Of a DNA stretch of 39,096 nucleotides, positions 4,809 to 8,932 are shown in pieces. A program made the position numbers and the translations under genes. Each line of letters begins with the position of its first letter. Within the stretch, counting starts at the first letter, position 1. Source of the stretch: a virus; the IMG/VR virus record IMGVR_UViG_3300032134_000008, positions 1 to 39,096 of that record; one strand, given 5' to 3'. The notes beneath the pieces are model-generated. The model was not told where the DNA came from and made no database searches. It worked only from the letters and a program-made list of their open reading frames with translations.

Positions 4809-5093
4809 ATGGCAGATTTAGAAAGATTTGACAGAATGAAAGACCTCGAACAGTACTTGCAACTTGTCGATGAGGTCATCGCGTCTGCGTTGAAGTTGAC
4901 GGGGAAGATTGAAGAGTTTAGGGAAGACGCGATCGATGTTGATCCTGATGTCTGGGCAGCAGCCAAGCGTCTTTATGATGACCTCAACTCGGTTGAAGAT
5001 CATGTGAATCCTAAGCCTGACACCGAGCAGCCTCTCTTGAAGTTTGGACCGGGCGGTGACTATGTCACTGAGGTTCACGGGGAGGATGTCTGA
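4809..5093 (+). CDS. Small acidic early protein, unknown function
   Basis: A 94-residue, strongly acidic, mostly helical protein starting at ATG 4809, with AGGAGA (4797-4802) upstream. The segment LEQYLQLVDEVIASALKLTGKIEEF reads as an amphipathic helix pair and the C-terminus is Pro/Gly-rich. No family is recognised. Small acidic early phage proteins are sometimes host-enzyme inhibitors or DNA mimics, but nothing specific shows that here. The stop TGA overlaps the next ATG (TGATG). Confidence 0.75.
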   Translation: MADLERFDRMKDLEQYLQLVDEVIASALKLTGKIEEFREDAIDVDPDVWAAAKRLYDDLNSVEDHVNPKPDTEQPLLKFGPGGDYVTEVHGEDV

Positions 5094-5296
5094 TGCCTAG
5101 CATCCCATCATACTGTCGCTGCGGTAGCGGGAAACCCTCCCGATGGCTCACAGATTCGCAAAACATCCCATTGCGTGGTGTCTGCGATGACTGCGAGGAA
5201 GCAGCAAAGGCGAAGTACGAGCCGTGGGTATTCTCCGGCTACGATCAAGCCTTCCTTGATGAGTATTCAGGTGAGCGTATCGAACCTTTGGACTGA
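5093..5296 (+). CDS. Small zinc-finger-type protein
   Basis: A 67-residue protein coupled to the gene before it. Cysteines are arranged as CRC (residues 8-10) and CDDC (31-34), enough for one zinc site of the ribbon type; the second half is acidic and aromatic (PWVFSGYDQAFLDEY). No named family is recognised. Its stop lies at the left flank of palindrome copy 6. Confidence 0.72.
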   Translation: MPSIPSYCRCGSGKPSRWLTDSQNIPLRGVCDDCEEAAKAKYEPWVFSGYDQAFLDEYSGERIEPLD

Positions 5297-5312: not shown

Positions 5313-5318
5313 TTTATA

Positions 5319-5344
5319 GTGGGCCGCGCATACTTACCACGCGG
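5319..5344 (+). promoter_or_regulatory. Structured leader element, copy 1
   Basis: Begins GTGGGCCGCGCATAC. CCGCG (5324-5328) pairs with CGCGG (5340-5344) around an 11-base loop starting CATACTTACC. The copy at 8025 is identical over 24 bases apart from one C-to-T change that is compensated across the stem. It ends 14 bases before ATG 5359. Confidence 0.65.
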
Positions 5345-5358
5345 GTAAGGACATCACC

Positions 5359-5541
5359 ATGTTAGAGTTACAAGAAGTTCTAGAAGCAGCGGAATGTGAC
5401 GATGGTAGAGGATTCTGTACTGCATGCGGTGAGGAGCATTACAGTTGCGAACCTGACGCTCGTCAGTATGAGTGCCATTACTGCGGCCTGAAGTCGGTCT
5501 ACGGTGCTGCGGAGATTCTACTGATGGGACTATGGCTTTGA
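5359..5541 (+). CDS. Small zinc-ribbon-type protein
   Basis: A 60-residue acidic protein starting at ATG 5359, about 10 bases after GGTAAGGA. The pairs CTAC (residues 20-23) and CHYC (39-42), about 16 residues apart, make a classic zinc ribbon; two extra cysteines are at about 13 and 30. The N-terminus is an acidic helix (ELQEVLEAAE) and the C-terminus is hydrophobic. No named family is recognised. Structured leader copy 1 lies immediately upstream, so expression is likely controlled at RNA level. Confidence 0.72.
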   Translation: MLELQEVLEAAECDDGRGFCTACGEEHYSCEPDARQYECHYCGLKSVYGAAEILLMGLWL

Positions 5542-5548
5542 CATAGCC

Positions 5549-5581
5549 GCCCATCCTCCTCTCTCCTGTGCGTGGATGGGC
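5549..5581 (+). other. Hairpin between early genes
   Basis: GCCCATCC (5549-5556) pairs perfectly with GGATGGGC (5574-5581) around a pyrimidine-rich 17-base loop, eight bases after the stop of the zinc-ribbon gene. It is the first of two hairpins in tandem and no U-run follows. Confidence 0.65.
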
Positions 5582-5586
5582 AGGCA

Positions 5587-5622
5587 GCGACTTCTGGCCT
5601 CCTTCGGGAGGCTGGGAGTCGC
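5587..5622 (+). other. Long UUCG-capped hairpin just before a ribosome site
   Basis: A continuous 16-bp stem (5587-5602 with 5607-5622, including four G-T pairs) capped by TTCG (5603-5606). It ends one base before AAGGAGAA, the ribosome site of ATG 5637. UUCG loops make RNA hairpins very stable, so this should fold in the transcript; it may block upstream exonucleases, be an RNase III site, or position ribosomes. Confidence 0.75.
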
Positions 5623-5636
5623 AAGGAGAAAACCAA

Positions 5637-5825
5637 ATGTATGGAACACCAGTAGCGGACAAAATCAGAACGCTGCTTCTTGAAGATCGAGTTGATCTCG
5701 CTCGGGGAGTTTTGAAGAAATCCCGAGAAGAAGACCTATTCACTGTCGATGGCTGCGTGAACATATACGACATGGTGGCTTGTATTGAATGCTTCCAACT
5801 CCATGAAATGGGAGGCCTCACATGA
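5637..5825 (+). CDS. Small early protein, unknown function
   Basis: A 62-residue protein. The start is ATG 5637 because AAGGAG (5623-5628) lies eight bases upstream, directly after the long hairpin. The sequence is helical (VADKIRTLLLEDRVDLARGVLKK) with a C-terminal part YDMVACIECFQLHEMG containing a CIEC pair. It resembles the 69-residue protein at 6573 in build (charged helix, LLTTDE/LFTVDG-like turn, second helix), so the two may be distant copies. The last codon overlaps the start of the next gene (ATGA). Confidence 0.72.
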   Translation: MYGTPVADKIRTLLLEDRVDLARGVLKKSREEDLFTVDGCVNIYDMVACIECFQLHEMGGLT

Positions 5826-6631
5826 ATGGCCTAGTAATCTACGATGGTCCCAGTCAGTGGGATGATATACCAATCGTTGTCATTGTCACTGGAATATCGA
5901 GACCCTCAAGCAATCCTAAGACTGGACCGATGTTGCAGGCATGGATATTGATGCGAGACATCCACCCGCACGAGGCTGTAGTCTCCGGGGCCGATGAATC
6001 TATATGCGGTCACTGCACCCACAGGCGTGATGAGGAGGGCAACAGGACATGCTATGTGTCCATGAATGCTCCCGGTGCTGTTTGGAAGACATACCGTGCC
6101 GGTAAGTATCGTTCGGTCAGTCCGCGAGAAGCGGGGAGCATGATCGCTCGTCGCAGTCTTCGCATCGGTGCGTATGGTGATCCAGCGATGGCCCCGATCG
6201 ATGTCTGGAGGCAGTTGATTCGTCGCTGCTCAGGGACTACTGGATACACGCATCAGTGGAGGGAGATGCCCGTGGAATATCGGGAGTTCTGCATGGCCTC
6301 GGTGGAAACTGAAGAAGAGGCAGCAGAAGCAATGTCGCTGGGATACAGAACATTCCGGTGCATATCGAAGGAAGAGACCCTGCTGGACAAGGAGATTCTA
6401 TGTCCAGCATCGGAGGAGGCAGGTAAGTTGACTACTTGCGATCGGTGCGGTCTGTGTGGAGGGTCCATGTCAGAGCGTACCAACCGTATTCCCACCATCG
6501 CCATTACGATCCACGGATCGGGGGCGAAGCACTTCAAATCGGAGACTCTCCGAAAAGGCAAGGAGGCCCATTATTCGTTACCAATGGTCGAACAGGTTAC
6601 AGATCGTCAAGTCTTGTCTAAAGACTGGTGA
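5822..6631 (+). CDS. Conserved phage protein with Cys clusters, unknown function
   Basis: A 269-residue protein from a family common in phages. The N-terminus (VVIVTGISRPSSNPKTGPM, WILMRDIHPHEAVVSGAD) leads to a metal-type cluster CGHCTHRRD...RTCYV (residues about 62-78), then a conserved middle (AYGDPAMAP, SGTTGYTHQW, CMASVETEEEA), and a second cluster CDRCGLCGG (206-214). IAITIHGSGAKHF (about 226-238) looks like the family's normal end. The frame then runs through palindrome copy 7 (KSETLRKG) for about 30 further residues and overlaps the next gene, so the tail may be a result of repeat insertion. Function unknown. It overlaps the previous gene by four bases. Confidence 0.85.
   Translation: MNGLVIYDGPSQWDDIPIVVIVTGISRPSSNPKTGPMLQAWILMRDIHPHEAVVSGADESICGHCTHRRDEEGNRTCYVSMNAPGAVWKTYRAGKYRSVSPREAGSMIARRSLRIGAYGDPAMAPIDVWRQLIRRCSGTTGYTHQWREMPVEYREFCMASVETEEEAAEAMSLGYRTFRCISKEETLLDKEILCPASEEAGKLTTCDRCGLCGGSMSERTNRIPTIAITIHGSGAKHFKSETLRKGKEAHYSLPMVEQVTDRQVLSKDW
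6539..6553. repeat. 15-bp palindrome, copy 7 (centre C)
   Basis: Perfect copy inside the 3' end of the gene at 5822, read there as SETLR, and 7 bases upstream of the AGGAGG (6561-6566) that serves the next gene. Confidence 0.95.
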
Positions 6632-6782
6632 CCTGAAGTTAGCAAAGAAGTATGCCAAGGAGATGCTGAACGATCCAGAGTCTCCGTGTTTACTTACGAC
6701 TGATGAGATTGAGTACTTGAAAGTTGTTGCTGTACTCAAGAAACTAGATGATTACATGAAGGGCTTGATAAAGGATATCTAG
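6573..6782 (+). CDS. Small protein with a probable ATT start
   Basis: A 69-residue frame with strong protein character (LKTGDLKLAKKYAKEMLND, LLTTDEIEYLKVVAVLKKLDDYM). No ATG, GTG or TTG lies in frame at a sensible place. An ATT at 6573 sits six bases after a perfect AGGAGG, which makes it the best start; CTG 6639 is the alternative. It overlaps the last 59 bases of the preceding gene in another frame. Two amphipathic helices are likely. No family is recognised; it is similar in build to the 62-residue protein at 5637. Confidence 0.62.
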   Translation: MRYQWSNRLQIVKSCLKTGDLKLAKKYAKEMLNDPESPCLLTTDEIEYLKVVAVLKKLDDYMKGLIKDI

Positions 6783-6783
6783 C

Positions 6784-7125
6784 ATGCCTGATTTAGCAGA
6801 GATTGACAACTATGTACTGAACAAAACCAATCCGGGTTCGGTCAGTGGTTCCATTGTCGGTGAGGATATGCCGAAGTTTCGTCATACCTACATACTGAAG
6901 GGGATACTGTTCGAGATCAAGTGCCCCGGAATGCGGCTGACTGGCAAAGCACCTAAGTGCAGCACAATCATCCGAAAAGAGTTTGGTTTCAAGGGCCGAC
7001 CAATCAAACTGGCCCAACAACTCTTCGACCTTCTGGTCGAGAAACAAGTTCTAGTTCACAAGGAGAACAACGATGGCGATACCGTTACCAGAGAACGTAA
7101 CAACCCAACACCTGAAGTATCTTGA
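6784..7125 (+). CDS. Early protein of unknown function
   Basis: A 113-residue protein starting at ATG 6784, one base after the preceding stop. The middle is ordered (TYILKGILFEIKCPGMRLTG, KCSTIIRKEFGFKG) and is followed by an amphipathic helix LAQQLFDLLVEK. The Arg/Lys-rich IIRKEFGFKGRP could contact nucleic acid. No family is recognised. The last 53 bases overlap the next gene in another frame; the tail after EKQVLVHKEN is low in character and may be less constrained. Confidence 0.72.
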   Translation: MPDLAEIDNYVLNKTNPGSVSGSIVGEDMPKFRHTYILKGILFEIKCPGMRLTGKAPKCSTIIRKEFGFKGRPIKLAQQLFDLLVEKQVLVHKENNDGDTVTRERNNPTPEVS

Positions 7126-7306
7126 TACCCTCAGGGATTCAGGTGTGACAAATATGTTTGGAGCGAGTGCTTATATTGTCGATCGATTTGGGGTTGACAA
7201 GAGAGAAGCGAAAGATATACTTGCTTTCTGGATGAATTCATATCCATACAACTACGACGAAATCGGAGACTCTCCGAATGTCGAGGAGGTTAACAATGAG
7301 TGCTGA
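7073..7306 (+). CDS. Conserved small phage protein
   Basis: A 77-residue protein starting at ATG 7073 behind AAGGAGAA (7060-7067). TLRDSGVTNMFGASAYIVDRFGVDKREAKDILAFWM belongs to a small protein family often seen in phages, with SGVTNMFGA and KREA.. WM as hallmarks; it looks like a compact helical domain. The function is unknown. After ~62 residues the frame runs through palindrome copy 8 (IGDSPNVEE) and ends inside the next gene, so the last 14 residues seem to be added by the repeat and the next gene's ribosome site. Confidence 0.82.
   Translation: MAIPLPENVTTQHLKYLDTLRDSGVTNMFGASAYIVDRFGVDKREAKDILAFWMNSYPYNYDEIGDSPNVEEVNNEC
7263..7277. repeat. 15-bp palindrome, copy 8 (centre C)
   Basis: Perfect copy in the last codons of the gene at 7073 (read IGDSP), 26 bases before ATG 7296 measured from its centre. 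Confidence 0.95.
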
Positions 7307-7670
7307 TCAACTTGCTTCAATACTAAGTGACATGATCGAGAGTTCGATCGATGACTACATGCAGGGCTTTGACTTCAGCAACTGCTATGAGTTCAACTCA
7401 GCAGTTGAGGGTGCGGTCGAGTGTCAGATTGATCGAATGGATCTCCCTGACACTGACTCAATCATGGAGTCCTGCATTGATCTGATGAAAGACCCGTACT
7501 ACTTCATCGAAGCGATGAGAAAGACCGCAGAGTTCCTTGATCATCGCATTGAGTTGATCAGGATATCTGCGGACCAGTCGCGGGACAGAAACAGACTCCA
7601 AAGTGAAGTAGATCGTCTGAAAAAGGAACTAGATTCAAGGATGAAACACTCGTTCGCATCGGATGCGTAA
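7296..7670 (+). CDS. Acidic helical early protein, unknown function
   Basis: A 124-residue protein. ATG 7296 is chosen because GAGGAGG (7283-7289) lies six bases upstream; an in-frame ATG at 7278 lies in the ribosome site itself. The protein is acidic and helical (residues 1-90) with a C-terminal coiled coil (RDRNRLQSEVDRLKKELDSRMK). No family is recognised. It follows palindrome copy 8 and overlaps the preceding gene by 11 bases. Confidence 0.75.
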   Translation: MSADQLASILSDMIESSIDDYMQGFDFSNCYEFNSAVEGAVECQIDRMDLPDTDSIMESCIDLMKDPYYFIEAMRKTAEFLDHRIELIRISADQSRDRNRLQSEVDRLKKELDSRMKHSFASDA

Positions 7671-7688
7671 GGACTCCTTGTGGCGAGG

Positions 7689-7736
7689 GTGGGACGCGCA
7701 TACCCTCTAGGCTGACTTCGGTCAGTAATCACGCGT
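7689..7736 (+). promoter_or_regulatory. Structured leader element, copy 3 (expanded loop)
   Basis: Shares GTGGGACGCGCATAC with copies at 5319 and 8025. ACGCG (7694-7698) pairs with CGCGT (7732-7736). The A-T pair replaces the C-G pair of the other copies, so pairing is kept. The loop is enlarged by an inner hairpin, CTGAC-TTCG-GTCAG (7712-7725). It lies 53 bases before ATG 7790. Confidence 0.6.
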
Positions 7737-7789
7737 AAGTAAACGCACAGTATGTGCAGGATTCTTAACCCCTTTTATGGAGAACTGAG

Positions 7790-8014
7790 ATGAATAGACT
7801 CAGGACTAAAACGTCGGACGCAACGCCCGGCATCTATTGTAGACTTACAGAATCATTGGATCAAGATGTCCGAATGATTCAGTCTGAAACCGCTCGTTTC
7901 ATAGAGAACAACAATCTTCCGGCAACCCCGCCGACGTTGACTGATGTGATCTCCAATCTTGTAAAGCGTGGAGTCACGCAGTACAAGAATGACCGACGAA
8001 ACAAGCAGCACTAA
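7790..8014 (+). CDS. Possible ribbon-helix-helix DNA-binding protein
   Basis: A 74-residue basic protein starting at ATG 7790, behind TGGAGAA. The layout fits a ribbon-helix-helix repressor: a strand GIYCRLTESLDQDVRMI, helix A with SETARFIEN, a Pro-rich turn, and helix B starting PTLTDVISNLVKRGVTQY, which is the usual form of the second helix. This is a pattern match by eye and not a firm family call. Such proteins bind short symmetric operators as dimers, so it is a candidate partner for the 15-bp palindrome. Structured leader elements lie on both sides (7689 and 8025). Confidence 0.65.
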   Translation: MNRLRTKTSDATPGIYCRLTESLDQDVRMIQSETARFIENNNLPATPPTLTDVISNLVKRGVTQYKNDRRNKQH

Positions 8015-8024
8015 TCCTGACAAG

Positions 8025-8050
8025 GTGGGCTGCGCATACTTACCACGCAG
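8025..8050 (+). promoter_or_regulatory. Structured leader element, copy 2
   Basis: Same 24-base core as the copy at 5319 with one difference. CTGCG (8030-8034) pairs with CGCAG (8046-8050): the C-to-T change in the left arm is matched by a G-to-A change in the right arm. It lies 18 bases before ATG 8069, followed by AAAGGAGAAAA. Confidence 0.65.
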
Positions 8051-8068: not shown

Positions 8069-8932
8069 ATGTTAGTACCTCAAGCCCCTACCCCCTTCGA
8101 CCCTAAGAACTGGGGAGAGCGGGTAGATATCAAGACAATCTCCCAGTCGAGGATACCTGTTCAAGGCCCAGAGAGTTGGAGACCTCTGCCCCACGGAACC
8201 TACGTCACGATGATCGAGCAGGCGTTCGATCGTCACGGCTTTGAAATCTCAGATCCGGTTCACTACAGAGCGAAGTCCCGACAGAACGAGAAGATCAAGG
8301 ATCAGCCCACGTATGGCAGGTTCTTGTCGCTGTACGGCATCGCTCACCCCGGACTTCCCGATGTTGCAGGCCTCAACTGGGAGTCCGGTTTCGGAAACTC
8401 CTACGATATGAGTACAGCAGCAGGAGGAGGCATCGGTACTCGTTTGCAGGTTTGCAGCAACGGAGAGTACATGGGCTCGATGTTCGGGTTCAAGCGGAAG
8501 CATACTGTCGGCATTGATCGAGAGCGAGAGGGTGCATTTGAGAGCATCTATAGTCTCGTCGATAACTGTGTCGGTCGCCTGCTGACCAGTGCTACTAGTG
8601 TCGCTCAGAAAATCGAGGTTCAGACAGTTACTGAGTGTTCGGATGTCGATGCTCGGTGGGTCATCCTTGAAGCCGCCAAGCGTGGCGTTATTGGAGCGGC
8701 AGCAACCATGCGAGTACTGGAACACTGGGAAACCCCAGAGCATCCTGAATTCAAGGACAGGAATGTCTGGAGCCTCAGGAATGCGTTCACGAGTAATGAC
8801 CGGGGCCAGTCCCTCATGACTCAGAGCGATCGCTTCGGTCGTCTCGGAGGAATCCTCGATGAGCGATTCCAAATCGGAGAGTCTCCGAATCCCGTGACGG
8901 ACGAAGAGGCGTTTGTATCAGCGGATTTCTAA
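8069..8932 (+). CDS. DUF932-type phage protein
   Basis: A 287-residue protein starting at ATG 8069 behind AAAGGAGA. It has the DUF932 build: a middle with GFGNSYDMSTAAGGGIGTRLQVCSN (the family's NS.DKS..AG and VC.N blocks, residues about 113-135), then FGFKRKHT and a long helical C-terminal half (ILEAAKRGVIGAAATMRVLEHW, NVWSLRNAFT). The family is common on phages and plasmids and its function is unknown. Palindrome copy 9 is in frame near the end (IGESPNPVT) and only about 14 residues follow it. It is the last gene of the early block, before the terminator at 8948. Confidence 0.8.
   Translation: MLVPQAPTPFDPKNWGERVDIKTISQSRIPVQGPESWRPLPHGTYVTMIEQAFDRHGFEISDPVHYRAKSRQNEKIKDQPTYGRFLSLYGIAHPGLPDVAGLNWESGFGNSYDMSTAAGGGIGTRLQVCSNGEYMGSMFGFKRKHTVGIDREREGAFESIYSLVDNCVGRLLTSATSVAQKIEVQTVTECSDVDARWVILEAAKRGVIGAAATMRVLEHWETPEHPEFKDRNVWSLRNAFTSNDRGQSLMTQSDRFGRLGGILDERFQIGESPNPVTDEEAFVSADF
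8874..8888. repeat. 15-bp palindrome, copy 9 (centre G)
   Basis: Perfect copy in frame near the 3' end of the DUF932-type gene, read IGESP, about 45 bases before the stop. Confidence 0.95.

Follow-up and report, generated by a model that had tools for sequence, protein, structure and literature searches.

A predicted 27-nt H-type pseudoknot family, apparently undescribed, at cistron junctions in unrelated phages

The question raised by this locus is what structure three short repeats between phage genes adopt, and what that structure does there. The window, by which is meant the whole 39,096-nt stretch of DNA that was analysed (IMG/VR record IMGVR_UViG_3300032134_000008), comes from a T7-like phage that encodes a single-subunit RNA polymerase and an integrase, and blastn of its DNA against phage records gave no match. 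Within it, GTGGGNNGCGCATAC occurs exactly three times, at 5319, 7689 and 8025, always on the + strand, as an earlier note on this DNA had reported. That note had also folded each repeat into a 5-bp stem closing a loop, and the three stems which it quoted (CCGCG/CGCGG, ACGCG/CGCGT and CTGCG/CGCAG) are correct; the stem is real, but it is only half of the fold, the other half having been missed. Indeed, bases -1 to 3 pair with bases 13 to 16 in all three copies, such that the repeats, taken with one extra 5' base, are predicted to be a 27-nt H-type pseudoknot and not a plain 5-bp hairpin. The layout comprises a 4-bp S1, an L1 of GG, a 5-bp S2 (NNGCG:CGCNN, with an invariant GCG:CGC core), CA between the two helices, and a short, A-rich L3, usually of 5 nt and ending in (C/A)A. 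A search with the full model (4-bp S1, GG, GCG, CA, A-CGC and S2) returned three matches in the window, as against one in total from 400 dinucleotide shuffles.

Copy 1 lies at 5318–5344 (S1 5318–5321:5331–5334, L1 5322–5323, S2 5324–5328:5340–5344, CA 5329–5330, L3 5335–5339) and copy 3 at 8024–8050 (S1 8024–8027:8037–8040, L1 8028–8029, S2 8030–8034:8046–8050, CA 8035–8036, L3 8041–8045), both on the + strand. Copy 2, on the same strand at 7688–7736, has a long L3 at 7705–7731 (S1 7688–7691:7701–7704, L1 7692–7693, S2 7694–7698:7732–7736, CA 7699–7700), which carries an inserted hairpin with a UUCG tetraloop at 7711–7726 and demonstrates that L3 tolerates such an insertion. The earlier note had given the UUCG hairpin to the third copy and a shared 11-nt loop to the first two; the hairpin is in the 7689 copy, and the loop is common to those at 5319 and 8025. 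All the neighbouring ORFs are on the + strand. Upstream of copy 1 is an ORF of 67 aa (5093–5296), whose stop codon is 22 nt before the element, and downstream one of 60 aa (5359–5541) of no confident family, its SD sequence AAGGA being 2 nt past the pseudoknot. Copy 2 follows an ORF of 130 aa (7278–7670); between copies 2 and 3 is one of 74 aa (7790–8014), with its stop codon 10 nt before copy 3. The ORF behind copy 3 (8069–8932) has no Pfam or PHROG match. The distances to the next ORF start, 14, 53 and 18 nt, agree with the 14–53 bases given previously, but the genes there described as small and early include this third one, which at 287 aa is not small.

A separate repeat is also found in this part of the window: a 15-bp palindrome, TCGGAGA-S-TCTCCGA, is present in twelve exact copies between 2603 and 15753 (at 2603, 3682, 3912, 4208, 4774, 5298, 6539, 7263, 8874, 11408, 13224 and 15739), with none at one mismatch and none beyond 15.8 kb. 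One of these is directly 5' of pseudoknot copy 1, and a relative, L006, has six. They are possibly repressor operators of this integrase-bearing T7-like phage, or RNA hairpins.

Evidence for the fold comes from elsewhere in phage sequence space, where scans of viral contigs find at least hundreds of copies in unrelated phages. The family consensus is 5'-N GUG GG NNGCG CA UAC N [UAH(C/A)A] CGCNN A-3', in which the S1 bases covary. In a relaxed search of element-bearing loci, six copies with an altered GTG or TAC were recovered, and in all of them a change on one side is balanced by one on the other. A dedicated scan, in which both U2 and A14 were required to be changed, found both S1 pairs kept in 42 of 48 sites with an intact S2, of G-C, A-U and C-G types, as against 8 of 55 sites without one, among the matches listed. 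Here the compensation runs across S2, and a simple hairpin is rejected on this ground. Moreover, base -1 was constrained in no scan, and yet the pair -1:16 is formed in 204 of 215 distinct elements among the matches listed, where composition predicts 42%; all four Watson–Crick types are represented (G-C 72, A-U 63, C-G 54, U-A 10), and at the next two offsets pairing falls to chance. For S2, both free positions are paired in 121 of 137 sites in the loci collected from the first IMG/VR scans (ca 14% by chance), and both outer bases in 115 of 122 distinct sites of a scan in which six loop bases were left free, again among the matches listed in each case, so that almost every site of the latter kind is expected to be real. 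In an alignment of 69 sequences, 99.4% of cells are paired and 144 show a double change; covariation scores 0.547, compared with 0.110 after shuffling and no more than 0.092 for slid partners. Some of these aligned pairs were already required when the elements were collected, and the case for the stems therefore rests on the independent tests, that is, the S1 double changes, the S2 outer pairs and -1:16. Single-sequence minimum free energies are uninformative for these elements, since pseudoknots are not modelled. The requirement for an H-type pseudoknot, of two crossing helices each with compensatory changes, is met. Overall, we have very little doubt that the element is a genuine family of RNA pseudoknots, as judged from sequence covariation, its folding in solution being inferred.

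The unpaired bases are no less conserved. When bases 4, 5, 11 and 12 were left free in a scan, GG was found in 54 and CA in 51 of the 57 paired sites, and the combination of the two in none of the 47 unpaired sites. In the scan with six free loop bases, the last loop base is A in 114 of 115 paired sites, and the base before it is C or A. Beyond S2, base 27 is A in 74% of elements.

With regard to its spread, a scan of IMG/VR contigs with the pattern GTGGGNNGCGCATACNNACCACGC returned 17 stretches. Among cultured phages, the element is carried by Rhodococcus phages Francesca and Dorin, Mycobacterium phage Indlulamithi, where it occupies 57713–57738, and Synechococcus phage S-EIV1, and element-bearing phage records mostly contain one to three copies. 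A scan of plasmids found none. A bacterial genome collection gave 77 matches, close to the number expected by chance on our own estimate, and real copies there are few; both S2 outer bases are paired in 33 of 78 sites, against an expected value of about 14%, from which roughly 20 of the genome-collection sites would be real. The IMG/VR contigs are fragmentary and in many cases redundant, and they lack assigned hosts; element counts are lower bounds. Most search patterns contained the core GCG:CGC and GGG/GCGCA letters, and more divergent members of the family may therefore exist. Two loci with several copies each may be recorded here. A small contig of a Fermentithermobacillaceae MAG packs four pseudoknots, with S1 of two types, into 2 kb (L183, G002:C117:3038-5005), which suggests a prophage with the element before successive genes. 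Another locus, L031, has three near-identical elements in 1.5 kb (at 2425, 3178 and 3906); the genes that follow them all differ and have no obvious SD sequence, and two of the three share nearly identical upstream sequence.

The position of the element with respect to genes is equally constrained, even though the ORF calls were mechanical and are noisy. Among 250 elements with enough flanking sequence, 70% have an ORF of at least 60 codons terminating no more than 30 nt upstream (7% of random positions), 73% have the ATG of such an ORF no more than 60 nt downstream (25%), and 56% satisfy both conditions (2%). When the same elements are read on the opposite strand, the stop-side and ATG-side values are 8% and 10%. 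Counted from the stop codon, elements set in sharply at 6 nt and have their mode at 7 nt, with only 2 of about 210 lying closer than 6 nt. From the ribosome footprint, approximately this spacing allows a structure to stay folded before a ribosome which has a stop codon in its A site, and we infer from the 6–7 nt spacing that the knot remains folded beside the terminating ribosome. Intercistronic placement on the coding strand, spaced from the stop codon, is thus as expected of an element that folds on mRNA under translation, and speaks against a DNA cruciform, which had been left open previously. A role in DNA, as cruciform, operator or recombination site, can draw on the short conserved sequence with its dyad-like stem and on its location at gene junctions where the neighbours change, but the strand asymmetry, the stop-codon spacing and the crossed S1/S2 topology make it barely conceivable. 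It is highly probable that the element acts in cis on the mRNA, although such action is inferred.

Several other functions that a structure in this position could have were considered and rejected. Intrinsic termination requires a helix followed by a U-run, and six or more T residues in the 8 nt after S2 are found in only 8 of 272 cases. The 7-nt mode does meet the spacing needed of a recoding stimulator (a pseudoknot 5–9 nt behind the decoded codon); stimulation of stop-codon readthrough or frameshifting is rejected, there being no frame bias and extension lengths being similar in all three frames. There is likewise no general enrichment of a sigma70 promoter that would place the start of transcription at the element, and S-EIV1 has a suggestive TTGATT-17-TATGTA at its copy.

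As to what the element might resemble, none of the 4227 families of Rfam 15 scores above its family cut-off at the elements. To our knowledge, only a few regulatory RNA motifs have been described in phages. Among phage RNAs, the closest in function is the gene 32 pseudoknot of T4-type phages, which is bound by gp32, lies 67 nt 5' of the start codon with an A+U-rich tract, and was considered in a 2010 review possibly the sole viral example in translational autoregulation (PMC3014915). As there, an H-type pseudoknot occupies a phage mRNA leader 5' of the ribosome binding site; the T4 operator, however, is specific to one gene, whereas the elements described here have neither a gene nor a phage protein in common. 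An operator of the gene 32 type would be located upstream of an SSB gene, and in this respect the elements do not fit, their downstream genes being diverse. STAXI RNA (RF01728) is also built of pseudoknot units, some with UUCG insertions, and is linked to mobile-element type genes (PMC2864571), but it consists of tandem repeats with an unrelated consensus (CCAAUG, CUGAGA); it has no match in the window and is excluded by that consensus. The put RNA of HK022, another structured nascent RNA of phage operons, provides a precedent for an antiterminator or anti-pausing element that binds RNA polymerase; put is about 70 nt long, has two stem-loops and is located downstream of early promoters (PMC9378689), and the elements, being 27-nt intercistronic knots and mostly one to three per record, do not fit this description, such that we regard a role of this kind as very improbable. 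The palindromic REP elements are structured RNAs which, similarly to the element, occur shortly after stop codons in polycistronic mRNA; they differ in being repetitive palindromes, not a pseudoknot with conserved loops mostly present in one to three copies per phage record. The knot family is apparently a widespread and undescribed one, with the caveat that only open-access literature was consulted, so that an earlier description elsewhere is not excluded.

The genes which flank the element offer no common theme. Clustering sorts the 256 downstream ORFs into 186 groups and the 211 upstream ORFs into 143; names from Pfam and PHROGs include DNA polymerases, primase, helicase, methyltransferases, integrase, exonuclease VIII, CsrA, glycosyltransferase, NlpC/P60, tail proteins and transposase. 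In one case, at L250:3569-3381 (-), a CsrA homolog stands directly behind a pseudoknot of the GGGGG/CATCC type. At the sensitivity of BLAST, any one protein family is found in at most 7 of 21 whole or near-whole element-bearing genomes, and in at most 9 of 111 neighbourhood groups. The element is thus linked to no single pathway and to no single detectable phage partner, and this diversity, with the absence of a shared phage protein, makes both a gene-specific switch and a phage-encoded partner unlikely. An operator for a phage-encoded RNA-binding protein, acting as gp32 does on its pseudoknot, has a phage precedent (PMC3014915), and some elements follow genes for proteins with an SSB-like DEIPF tail; nonetheless, the lack of any shared family renders it improbable. 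Gene diversity bears equally on the possibility that the knot is a riboswitch, the aptamer of a metabolite common to many hosts, binding of which would alter access to the SD sequence. Compact pseudoknot riboswitches are of similar size and topology, and those of the preQ1-I type share with the element a short H-type knot with an A-rich L3 near the SD sequence. The conserved unpaired bases and the adjoining SD sequence also speak for this reading, but there is no Rfam sequence match, several placements have no SD sequence, and downstream genes as different as those for DNA polymerase, integrase, methyltransferase, CsrA, glycosyltransferase and NlpC/P60 have no metabolic theme, so that the consistent association with a pathway expected of a riboswitch is lacking. 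We consider it distinctly unlikely.

Whether the target of the element is the upstream or the downstream cistron is a question on which the evidence is mixed. Orthologs of 8069–8932 keep the element, and its pairing, in seven relatives (L004, L006, L007, L012, L062, L073 and L378), down to 32% protein identity, with the outermost S2 pair lost in L006, and several of them have non-homologous upstream genes. The earlier note's proposal of a conserved structured RNA would have been refuted by relatives without preserved pairing; the outcome favours structure and, together with the covariation in hundreds of other phages, strongly supports the proposal. Where the preceding gene apparently runs on without a gap, the element is absent before the ortholog. 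In S-EIV1, moreover, ca 450 nt of apparently non-coding sequence lie upstream of the element and a start codon 35 nt downstream. On the other hand, homologous upstream genes with non-homologous downstream genes account for 128 pairs and the reverse for 62, an imbalance which, although the pairs are not independent, may point partly to a 3'-UTR role. The FQDFSTV family, 18 members of ca 100 aa, which contributes to the 128 pairs, is followed by the element, while the next gene varies (methyltransferase, glycosyltransferase or other); these junctions (for example, L111:6136, L047:4475 and L078:3985) look like an insertion site for accessory genes. In one lineage (L019:3425, L020:3751, L060:3094, L107:12075 and L132:11204), the element is followed by a sigma70-like promoter (TTGACA-16/17-TAnnAT) before the next gene, so that here it is outside that gene's own transcript. 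The promoter is very close to the start codon of the gene, a small one of the xVSDxIxxSYMGWM family, which is apparently leaderless in L019 and L020.

The main rival to an effect on translation is a role in mRNA processing or stability. If the knot protected mRNA ends, whether as a cap-like block on the 5' ends that cleavage of the A-rich spacer past the stop codon would create, or as a 3' barrier to exonucleases, the outcome would be differential stability of the neighbouring cistrons. Protection or processing of this kind fits all placements almost as well, suiting both the position in a 5' leader only (S-EIV1) and that in a 3'-UTR only (the L019 lineage), as well as the tight anchoring to the upstream stop codon, the diversity of flanking genes and the compact fold without a U-run. 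It has no need of abutment to an SD sequence, however, and stability alone leaves the conservation of GG, CA, the terminal A and the GCG:CGC core across very different hosts unexplained; we regard it as possible, if somewhat unlikely.

The best mechanism that can be offered is that the knot tunes translation initiation of the downstream cistron. This is inferred and not shown, there being no direct functional data, and we hold it tentatively, with doubts that slightly outweigh our confidence. The knot would fold co-transcriptionally and stay folded next to the terminating ribosome; its conserved GG, CA and A residues may then contact the 30S subunit during initiation, or else a host factor or ligand that is conserved, and this contact would set, insulate or switch expression of the downstream gene. 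Support comes from the SD sequence which, where present, begins 0–5 nt after S2 in 54 of 89 cases, from retention of the element before the 8069 orthologs and from its leader position in S-EIV1. Against it, SD sequences are no less frequent behind elements than before other genes of the same loci (53% versus 44%); replacement of the SD by the element is rejected, and the absence of any sign of it counts against the mechanism. The promoter of the L019 lineage and the 128 versus 62 pairs also count against a downstream effect, and that downstream translation is the main output is held with rather more doubt. The control or processing role envisaged for the repeats in the earlier note remains plausible and unproven.

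That unrelated phages conserve both the sequence and the structure implies a partner which their hosts have in common, or a metabolite, and the presence of the element in so many of them suggests a shared mode of phage gene control. The knot may be a general translation device of tailed phages, in which the bacterial ribosome itself, or else a universal host factor or metabolite, recognises 27 nt at cistron junctions, a conjecture which we think unlikely as matters stand. Cultured carriers, such as Mycobacterium phage Indlulamithi on M. smegmatis and Synechococcus phage S-EIV1, allow the element to be tested directly. As a compact and portable handle on the setting of phage expression in polycistronic mRNA, the knot would offer a new structure or ligand target, and, were the general device borne out, phages of Actinobacteria, Cyanobacteria and other phyla would have in common a regulatory RNA that is conserved in sequence, whatever the genes it serves.
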